Shown piece after piece: positions 1,859-63,000 of a stretch of 64,000 bases of DNA. The position numbers and the translations under genes are program-made. How positions within the stretch are numbered: the stretch's first letter is position 1; the number at the start of each line of letters is the position of its first letter. Source of the stretch: Nereocystis luetkeana (taxonomy: Eukaryota > Sar > Phaeophyceae > Laminariales > Laminariaceae). The notes under the pieces are model-generated. The model was not told the origin of the DNA, searched no databases, and saw only the letters and a program-made list of their open reading frames with translations. The stretch covers positions 14,254,425 to 14,318,424 of the forward strand of contig JARUPZ010000002.1 in assembly GCA_031213475.1 (NCBI GenBank), given 5' to 3'.

Positions 1859-2065
1859 GTTCAGAGTTACCGTACGTAGGTGTTTTACACCACCATTAAT
1901 TAAAAAATACAAAAAAAAAGTAAGCTTCGTACCTGGTATACCTGGTACATATTATTGCTGAGTTAATAGTTCAGAGTTACCGTACGTAGGTGTTTTACAC
2001 CACCATTAATACAAAAAATACAAAAAAAAAGTAAGCTTCGTACCTGGCATACCTGGTACATATTA
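1852..2065 (+). repeat. Two-copy direct tandem repeat of about 111 bp
   Basis: The block starting TTAATAGTTCAGAGTTACCG is present twice (about 1853-1961 and 1963-2073). The first copy carries two abutting TACCTGGTA units (1930-1947); the second copy has TACCTGGCA plus TACCTGGTA, so one of the paired motifs has mutated. Confidence 0.85.
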
Positions 2066-2456
2066 TTGCTGAGTTACCTGAGTCACACGACGTATTACCA
2101 CGTGTCATGGGAAGTAAGTGCCTCTACAGCGTAGTACATGCTACTGCTTGCTACGCTCGTATTAATAACTACGCTGCTGACTGCAGCAGCAACATTATTT
2201 ATAATACTCGTACGTTCGTAGTGCCTCGGACAGTCGTACGTATACCACAGGTATGATACGCGTGGTGATTTTCGTCAACATTTTTTTACCGGTCTTTATG
2301 GAAACAATAGGGGCCCAAGGGGCACGAGGCGACCCCACATTCATCCAAACGCCGCAGCGTGGTCCCTTTCGATTTTTTCCATTTTTTTTCGTGTAGGACG
2401 GATTTGATGGAGACAAGAGACGACCTACGTACCTGCTTTATTCGGTGACCAGCCAT
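2066..2456. other. No gene seen
   Basis: Short mixed sequence between the tandem repeat and the large inverted repeat. No recognisable ORF or motif. Confidence 0.4.
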
Positions 2457-60000: not shown

Positions 60001-63000
60001 GGCGACGAGGCTCACTGTGACAGAGACGGAGGAAAGCTTTACCCGGACCGAATCGGTGGAGAGGTGGTCGCGAGAGGGGCCGGCGGCATACGAGGCTGGG
60101 AGAGAAGCTCTGCTGTTTGTTTTTTTTCCTTCTTTGACTGGTGCAAGGTGTTCCAATCAGGCAGAATATTACCACATGAGAGGGGACGGGGATTTTTTTT
60201 CTTTCCGAAATATTCGGTTTCATTTTCATTGTATTTGCGGTGTTACTGCTGTGCCGTGCTGTGCTTTCTTTTTCGTACATACCAGGTACGTAGAGCGTAT
60301 CAAAAGAAAATAAGTACCCTGCCTGGTGTATGTACGTACGTACGGCATGTGAGCAAGCGTACCGGGCGGAAACGCCCGCGATGCGACGCGTATGTGGCGT
60401 CCGAGCTGTTTTCTCCTGAAGCATGTCGACGGGACTCTTGGCATTATCAAGCCGCCAGTTTGCAACTGCAACAGTCATAAAAAAACTATATTCAATATCG
60501 ACCTTCTGTCCGCTTCGCATGATTTGATATACCTTTTCTTCCTGAGCGAGCGTAGCGGGTGGCGTAGGCCGCCCGCGGAGCGGAGCACCTTACACATACA
60601 TATATACATACATACATACATACACATACGTATAATACACATGTATACACACATACGTACGTACATACCACGGTATAATATAACATGGTTCGTGTGGCCC
60701 AGTGCACCACGAGCATTCGTGAGCGACAGGCACATGCAAAATATGTCGTGTTTGTCTGCGAGTACTGGGCACGAGCACGGTATCATCTCACGAGCGTGAG
60801 GTACGCTGCTACCAGGGGTAACCGTGCCGCCCATCATTCACTCGTAGCGTTCCGTGATCGTCATAGCTCCTCGATGGTTGATTCATTGTGATTGATTGGT
60901 TGATTGAATGGTTGACTGATCGATTATTCTATTGATTGAACGATGGAATGTTGAATGATCGAGTGGCTTGTACTGATTGGTTGATTGATTGATTGATTGA
61001 CTGATTGATTGAATGAATGATTGATTGGTTGATTGACTGATTGATTGATTGGTTGGTTGGTTAATTGGTTAAAATACTACCATCGGTTGCTTGACTGTTG
61101 ATTTGATTAAAGGTTGTGTGACTTTGTGATTGGTTGGTTGGGTGGCACTTCTTTGAAGATTTGAGTATTGACTTCATGATTTCATCATTTGGCTTGTTGG
61201 TGCGAGTAATTGGTTGCTGGTATCATTGATTCAGTACTGATCTGATTGGTTGTTGATAGATCGATTGGTTATTGATTCATCGATTGGAAAATGACTGACC
61301 ATTCAAAATGGTTCCGTGATCTGTTACTCGATCGTTGAATGCCTACAGCAGCCAGCAGGCCGGCCTCACAACGTCATCGCGACAGCAGCGGCACGCAAAA
61401 CACACCCACAGGAGTTCATGCGCCCGGAGCACAATTTCACAACACGCTTTATTTTCGTAACTTTTCTCGAAAACAAAATTGTCGCGCGGTGAGCACGGAC
61501 AAATGAACACCACGGCAGCACTCGTCTACACAAGTCATAAAAAACGAGAAACGAATGTCGCGCGATCAGCAAGGGCGTTATACGGCGAAGTACAATGGGT
61601 GAAAACCTCTCACGACTCACTACGCCAGCCTTAATGATACAATGAGTACAATATAAACTCGAGGTCAAAACCGGATATTTTGTTATTCTACACACATGTG
61701 TCCGTACGACAAGCTTTGCGCCAGGTGTCATTCATCTACCTGAAGTATCGAACGACCATGTCAAAAAAAGAAGAAGAAAAAAGCGGAGGCAGCGGTAGCG
61801 GCAGAACACCTTCTGCCCTACAAACACGAAGCGTGACACACACAAAATCAGTCGACCTCAAGTGGGCAGTAACGCGCGGAGAACACTGCACTGTAGTCGG
61901 GAAAAAGGTGTAAAACGAAATGCCGCGCGATCAGCCATGGCCGAATGTCCCCGGCCGACTCACTAGCGTGGTGTGCTTCTCGGGAGCGATGGCCTCCAGC
62001 GTTCGCAGGGCCCTCCTCGCCACCTCTGGCGTTTCCGTTAGCGCGTTGAAGCCGTACATGCGCGGTCCGCGCGTTACCTTCATCGATTTTATTTTCGCCG
62101 GCAGCGTGAAAATAATACGCGAACCCAAAAATACAACAAAAATACAGACCACGCGGGGGGGGGGGGGGGGGGGGGAGACACGCGAAAGAGTCCAGAGGAA
62201 GGGAGGGGAAGAGGGACAAAGGGAGGCAGGGGGGGGGGGGGTGTACTCATATCATGCGTGGCCGTAGTCATATGGCCAGAGACCCTCGCATCCCGATGCA
62301 ATGCCAGGACGGAGGACGTCGGATTTTCACCGCACCAGGCAATTCATTGCTTGCACCAAGCAGGAAGCGCCGTGACATGTAGGGCGAGTCGCATGAAGGG
62401 CGAGCTGCATCCTACTAAGAACCGCTTGTGATCTGGCTTTCCTTGCGCATGGATGGCAGCGTCGAGTTAATTGTTTGGTTTCTATTGATAGTGTGGTCAG
62501 TGGGGGAGGGGGGGGGGGGGGGGAGAGAGGGAGGGAAGGGGTGGGGCGGACTGAGAGCGGTGCGTAGGTCAGCAGCGACGGGGTGCTTATGAAGCCCACA
62601 CGAATTAACTCGTTGCAAAAAAAAAAACTGCAGCGTGTCGGCCTACTGTTAACCCTTTGAGAACCCCAGTCCCGTTTTGGGGACAGACTACTTATAATCT
62701 GAGTAATTCGTCCCCACATATGGGACTGCGGTGCTAAACGGGTTAATAGCGCCGGCCTGCAAGAGGCGATTCCTATGATCGGGTTGAACCACAGTTCGTC
62801 CGAGAAAGTGTAACATACACCACTGTCTGTATGGTATGCCTACCTAGTTTCACGTGACTTTGAATACCACTGCTTCAGGTATGTAACCCTCGGTACTTCC
62901 AAATTCGTTCTCTGCGCATCTACCATGTTCGTCCCCCCCCCCCCCCCCCCCCTGACCCGCTTCTTTCCGCCTCCTTCACTGGCTCGAAACCCATCCTAAC

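Follow-up and report, generated by a model that had tools for sequence, protein, structure and literature searches.

The excision footprints published for Tc1/mariner transposons hold 2–4 bp between two copies of the duplicated TA target (PMC7913693), and that of Sleeping Beauty reads TACWGTA (PMC4378557). Mariner elements have a 3-bp stagger between the phosphates (PMC5714172) and leave behind 2–3 nt of an end; the end oligonucleotides of the Mos1 mariner are TA-CCAGGTGTAC and TA-TCAGGTGTAC (PMC2642840). As for the targets, the Tc1 site is AYATATRT (PMC9635669), and ZB, SB and Bari prefer AT-repeat targets (PMC7913693). The Stowaway MITEs of Triticeae leave short end fragments of 1–4 bp between TAs at a few loci, in several forms per site and with insertion beside an older footprint (PMC1925063). 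Paramecium harbours ~45,000 TA-bounded internal eliminated sequences (IESs), which have a Tc1/mariner link (PMC3464196).

The motif TACCWGGTA is dispersed in the genome of the kelp Nereocystis luetkeana. Like the Sleeping Beauty footprint, it is a TA-flanked palindrome of odd length with a W centre, in which one TA corresponds to the target duplication. TACWGTA has 3 bases between the TAs and TACCWGGTA has 5, one more on each side, so that the main form here is longer than the 2–4 bp of the published footprints. Moreover, it forms a natural, genome-wide population of sites with no element known. As in Stowaway, short fragments lie between TAs, with several forms at one site and insertion beside an older unit, whereas a single form dominates here, with 182,395 counts. 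Within the literature searched by exact string and topic, as far as its accessible text goes, the phenomenon was not found in print, and the main text of a paper on Ectocarpus transposons (PMC12477816) contains neither 'excision' nor 'footprint' nor 'palindrom'.

Abundance of the motif

The window, by which we mean the whole 64-kb stretch of DNA analysed, has 38 exact copies of TACCWGGTA, the central base being T in 23 and A in 15, where Markov models of orders 1–4 predict 0.5–1.3. A preliminary description had given about 40 copies against about 0.5 expected, in good agreement with this count, and 12 of its 13 example coordinates are exact, the copy placed at 60281 really starting at 60280. 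With an order-3 model and simple repeats masked, 0.6 copies are expected and the motif is the over-represented 9-mer of highest significance in the window. Among TA-N5-TA words, CCAGG occurs 38 times and the runner-up words 8 times. The sites are listed below together with two variants; no strand is assigned, and the basis is an exact motif unless another one is given in brackets.

1930–1938: TACCTGGTA unit, within a 111-bp tandem duplication
1939–1947: TACCTGGTA unit, immediately after the 1930 unit; original site TATA
2050–2058: TACCTGGTA unit, in the second copy of the tandem duplication; same-length partner (motif and pair test)
3361–3369: TACCTGGTA unit, left TA in common with TACCTGATA at 3354
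3463–3473: variant TA-CCAGGTG-TA, exceeding 8 of 8 further aligned TA-MITE copies by 9 bp (alignment)
5956–5964: TACCTGGTA unit
6362–6370: TACCTGGTA unit, left TA in common with TACCAGTA
8979–8987: variant TACCTGATA, clean 7-bp insertion relative to both arms of the 2456–4434 inverted repeat (pair test)
10488–10496: TACCAGGTA unit
12310–12318: TACCAGGTA unit
12479–12487: TACCTGGTA unit
12800–12808: TACCTGGTA unit
16395–16403: TACCTGGTA unit, within an (AT)n run
16412–16420: TACCTGGTA unit, same (AT)n run as 16395
17211–17219: TACCTGGTA unit; empty partners 3156–3228, 3662–3734, 31398–31470 (pair test)
18027–18035: TACCAGGTA unit
20823–20831: TACCTGGTA unit; one empty partner, 28924–29000 (pair test)
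21956–21964: TACCAGGTA unit
22487–22495: TACCAGGTA unit
23366–23374: TACCTGGTA unit
23817–23825: TACCAGGTA unit
24754–24762: TACCTGGTA unit; empty partners 8076–8159, 8560–8638, 3005–3085, 3805–3885 (pair test)
28689–28697: TACCAGGTA unit, left TA in common with TACCGGTA at 28683
29866–29874: TACCTGGTA unit, within a TA-MITE; 8 empty partners (pair test)
31688–31696: TACCTGGTA unit
32081–32089: TACCAGGTA unit, in the AT-rich cluster of motif-like units 32031–32164; a single AT-rich 'empty' alignment, uncounted
32114–32122: TACCAGGTA unit, cluster 32031–32164; a single AT-rich 'empty' alignment, uncounted
32156–32164: TACCTGGTA unit, cluster 32031–32164
38249–38257: TACCAGGTA unit, right TA in common with TACGAGGTA
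39998–40006: TACCTGGTA unit
44985–44993: TACCTGGTA unit; partner 44871–44927 of empty length, with substitutions at TA (repeat comparison)
45089–45097: TACCTGGTA unit, right TA in common with TATCAGGTA
46462–46470: TACCTGGTA unit, inner left arm of a fold-back; 47128 also filled; copy 46384–46416 of empty length, with one TA substitution (repeat comparison)
47128–47136: TACCAGGTA unit, inner right arm of the fold-back carrying 46462 (repeat comparison)
47474–47482: TACCTGGTA unit, in the right arm of the fold-back, the left arm being empty at 45814 (arm alignment)
50507–50515: TACCAGGTA unit; partner TACTATGTA, same length (repeat comparison)
52916–52924: TACCAGGTA unit
53158–53166: TACCAGGTA unit
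58154–58162: TACCTGGTA unit
60280–60288: TACCAGGTA unit

The motif is found genome-wide and far above expectation: in the assembly (465,085,209 bases, 1,987 contigs), the reversed pattern, taken as a control, gives 1,744 matches against the 182,395 of TACCWGGTA. On average the assembly has one copy per 2.5 kb, and the window is denser, with one per 1.7 kb. Additional 10-kb stretches, 25 in all, were picked by round coordinates on seven contigs and are a sample rather than a survey; 23 of them contain the motif, with 99 copies in total, 72 in the 20 stretches from contigs C1 and C2 and 27 in the five from C3, C5, C8, C12 and C20. Motif density tracks TA content, with no copy in 41 half-kb bins of at least 60% GC. 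In public collections, TACCWGGTATACCWGGTA was found at 7 viral and 28 bacterial or archaeal loci, whose retrieved pieces hold 2–3 motifs each, nearly all of them the query pair itself. By a hand estimate, the 28 bacterial and archaeal loci are near chance.

Seven bases added at TA

Relative to other copies of the same repeat, in which the TA is empty, copies with TACCWGGTA have gained CCWGG and one TA. For each site, the window was searched with the flanks fused at one TA (empty form) and unmodified (filled form). Eleven motif sites have homologues in the window, and these give 19 empty pairs and 4 filled or same-length pairs; for control TAN5TA sites, of which 79 out of 280 have homologues, the figures are 43 and 279 (Fisher p = 3e-12, where pairs within a repeat family are not independent). 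Counted by site, empty partners exist for 7/11 motif sites and 22/79 control sites (p = 0.034). Two of these seven (32081 and 32114) rest on AT-rich alignments and are not counted, leaving 17211, 20823, 24754, 29866 and 47474. An extended set was made up of the window, 20 stretches and eight loci of 3 kb, with overlap among three of the loci and hence repeated counting of some sites. It gave homologues for 42 of 126 sites, with 120 empty pairs, 45 same-length pairs and clean junctions at 13 sites.

Four filled and empty pairs had been put forward previously. Those at 47474 and 29866 hold, the right arm of the fold-back being exactly 7 bp longer than the empty left arm at 45814, and 29866 having eight empty partners. 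At 17211 and 24754 the empty partners are confirmed (three and four, respectively), but the exact cleanness claimed for them is weaker, given that further small differences lie close to the junction. Together with the genome-wide count, the paired copies support the 7-bp TA-duplicating insertion that had been proposed, and across the genome TA sites seem to have received the same seven bases tens of thousands of times.

In the weaker pairs, 46462/47128 and 44985, the partner copies are of empty length with substitutions at TA. The partner of 50507 reads TACTATGTA and has equal length; in stretch L050 a motif unit lies within the same TACTATGTA stretch, which fits an insertion beside it. Two control sites are themselves 7-bp insertions, a clean one of TACCTGATA at 8979 and one of another sequence, TATTTAATA, at 40265.

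Two large structures carry several of the listed sites. An inverted repeat at 2456–4434 has 819-bp arms that are 99.6% identical; in its spacer, motif-like units lie at 3361, 3463 and 3603 along with a TA-MITE. The arms of the large fold-back at 45286–48006 measure ~860 bp and are 92.6% identical, and it contains further inverted arms on the inside at 46442–46707 and 46877–47157.

Target preference, nesting and rarer junctions

Among 110 sites in 264 kb, position −1 is R in 92 and position +1 is Y in 91; positions −3 and +3 are A in 56 and T in 47, and positions −6 and +6 are A in 56 and T in 50, respectively. The flanks are palindromic, RTAY, and alike on both sides, an AT-rich target around TA as in Tc1/mariner excision footprints, and they are close to the Tc1 target AYATATRT and to the preference of ZB, SB and Bari for AT repeats.

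The sites are also nested. In 314 kb (the window and the 25 stretches), 11 pairs among 137 sites share one TA, where uniform placement over 16,624 TAs predicts 1.1 (at most 6 in 2000 runs) and an estimated ~3 if only the 6,163 RTAY sites are open. The centre base is the same in 8 of the 11 doublets and opposite in 3. Arrays reach 3–4 units at one TA. Two copies related to each other, with three TACCAGG-type units in tandem, lie in stretches L052 (9156–9236) and L051 (7362–7385); in L052, 65 bp similar to window positions 20982–21047 separate the first unit from the second. The idea, taken from the window, that tandem neighbours are always imperfect was ruled out, perfect doublets being common elsewhere. 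Since nested units place CC next to TA, despite the rarity of C at +2 in single window sites (7/76), a plain target preference does not explain the nesting.

Rarer junctions accompany the main form. When 54,458 intervals of 1–60 nt between TAs were scanned under strict criteria, 163 qualified as clean insertions, 18 of them five nt long. CCAGG accounts for nine of the 18, and some of the other nine adjoin a CCAGG site in stretch L055 and are register shifts. CCAG, CCAAGG, CCAGGG, CCAGGTG, CCTGA and CCTAG were found less often in the same scan; all of these except CCTAG are possible imprecise forms of the main junction, and decay by mutation may be an alternative source. Counts of TACC-N{g}-GGTA for g from 0 to 5 are 10, 117, 11, 12, 0 and 2; the forms with g of 2 and 3, more numerous than those with 4 and 5, may also be imprecise versions, as may TACCAGTA. 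One-mismatch forms number 108 in 264 kb, ~59 of them by chance, beside 110 exact motifs. The most enriched is TACCTGATA, the TCAGG form, with 14 copies against 2.0 expected; TACCAGTA was observed 27 times (8.5–11.5 expected) and TATCTGGTA 4 times (2.3 expected). TACCGGTA occurs 8 times in the window, where ~1 is expected, and twice more in the other 200 kb, making it a weak candidate for a genome-wide footprint variant.

Mos1 ends continue after TA as CCAGG or TCAGG; here CCAGG is dominant, TCAGG is the top one-mismatch form and there is one clean CCAGGTG insertion. On the other hand, mariner footprints are shorter than the 5 nt seen here, and the family of mariner transposases, PF01359, has no match above cut-off. 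This likeness in sequence is taken as a lead only. TACCATA was considered as a mariner footprint and discarded, with 41 copies against 33 expected and thus no enrichment. The Sleeping Beauty form TACWGTA occurs 86 times, against 38 expected, in 264 kb after masking.

Excision or direct insertion

The preliminary description left two readings side by side, an excision footprint and a self-contained micro-insertion. We now favour the footprint, on account of the target preference, the imprecise-looking rarer junctions and the nested hits at one TA, although the search reported below found no parent element. TACCWGGTA is thus probably the healed excision site of a TA-targeting, TA-duplicating cut-and-paste transposon that works in the Tc1/mariner way. 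The transposon and its cutting are deduced from the sites: it would insert at TA, and its excision would leave a few end bases between two TAs. With a 5-base stagger and ends starting CCTGG, the overhangs could pair with one central T:T mismatch. In another scheme, derived by ourselves, a mariner-type stagger of 3 bases at ends starting CCA or CCT would be joined over one mismatched base, so that the parent ends need not read CCWGG. Both schemes would yield exactly TACCWGGTA, the mismatch being settled either way, and a W centre would also be expected from the two orientations of one sequence. A modest population of elements jumping often over a long time may leave far more scars than elements; given that scars accumulate while elements move on, the coexistence of many scars and few elements is no contradiction.

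The transposon ends starting with CCWGG that had been predicted were not encountered in the window or the 25 stretches of 10 kb: among the matches listed there, no TA-flanked parent has inverted ends that match, and no element with YCAGG or CCW ends at TA is convincing. In the window, TACCWGG...CCWGGTA inverted ends occur only inside the 2456–4434 palindrome and an AT-rich hairpin at 32041–32122. Of 25,551 TACC...GGTA intervals of 20–8000 bp, two survived as candidate presence/absence inserts, both unconvincing. Neither of two transposase families gave a match above cut-off in six-frame searches without introns, in which few candidates are scored: PF13358 (DDE_3) had no match in the genome, and PF01359 (Transposase_1) had two below cut-off (E 0.46 and 0.77), both limits of the search reducing sensitivity. 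Stretch L070, behind a weak PF01359 match, showed nothing mariner-like when inspected by eye. A candidate element at L062:4288–4583 with ends CCAGAAAACGG was dropped, its relatives in L044 matching beyond both ends, and TACC...GGTA pairs with 12/12 matching ends in L046 and the window are embedded in longer inverted repeats.

These searches bear on the micro-insertion reading, according to which TA is nicked with a stagger by an enzyme and directly receives a fixed 5-base filler (CCTGG), a large element never having been present. The extreme constancy of the inserted sequence, the arrays at one TA, the lack of a large element in the sequence read (window and 25 × 10 kb) and that of an above-cut-off match in the two transposase families agree with it. 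Nevertheless, the sites show the target preference of Tc1/mariner transposases and the rarer junctions resemble end joining, and we regard this reading as unlikely. To our knowledge, no enzyme adds a fixed filler at a nicked TA. It is similarly doubtful that ~180,000 products arose by repeated de novo insertion of a fixed 7-bp unit at TA, its own edges included, with a larger element never taking part.

A dimer binding site with a W centre, maintained by selection, would account for the scarcity of decayed copies indicated by the one-mismatch counts. It is very improbable: filled copies differ from empty ones by 7 bp in length, which contradicts it, and the clean presence or absence relative to other repeat copies, the target-like flanks on both sides and the nested units also speak against it. 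We likewise give little credence to microsatellite slippage or gene conversion spreading a 7-bp unit: tandem units and the doublets with the same centre base are in line with it, but single units stand in flanks unrelated to one another, the centres are opposite in 3 of the 11 doublets, and slippage cannot start from an empty TA. Remnants of TA-bounded elements under programmed removal, as in ciliates, would match the TA boundaries, the tens of thousands of sites and the Tc1/mariner-like target, but are highly implausible, since Paramecium IESs have a minimum length of 26 bp and are removed down to one TA without residue in the published account (PMC3464196), whereas 7 bp remain here and there is no sign of two genomes.

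If the sites are scars of excision, they would provide a readable record of past excisions in one genome, far outnumbering the elements in the sampled sequence, from which excision rate, local hopping and repair outcome could be counted in a natural population. Should they prove not to be scars, there is a new mechanism that adds DNA at TA. In either case, the 7-bp difference is an easy marker, and orthologous sites in different strains would give gains, losses and the order of events.

Other features of the window were observed in passing. The kinase mentioned in the preliminary description was not named by a motif scan or by Pfam scans of 26 window ORFs, which gave a sub-cut-off match (E 0.019) to the EsV-1-7 cysteine-rich motif, known from brown algae. 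An open frame of 435 aa at 42499–43806, parts of which are repeated at 41210–41474 and 42249–42564, has two relatives among public proteins, both unnamed and from ENA, and no Pfam match. A TA-flanked MITE family of ~105 bp with ends TTACGGGGGACCATAGT is found at 21366–21476, 24891–25001, 29928–30038, 35401–35511 and elsewhere. A near-palindrome family of ~97 bp, with ends ACCCTTTTAGAACCGCAGTCCCGT at TA, is represented in the 40265 region and at 12003–12099, 18373–18469, 23716–23813, 23932–24029 and 28134–28232. At 40265–40273, TATTTAATA is a 7-bp TA-duplicating insertion of another sequence (TTTAA), with 13 and 9 empty pairs in two comparisons.
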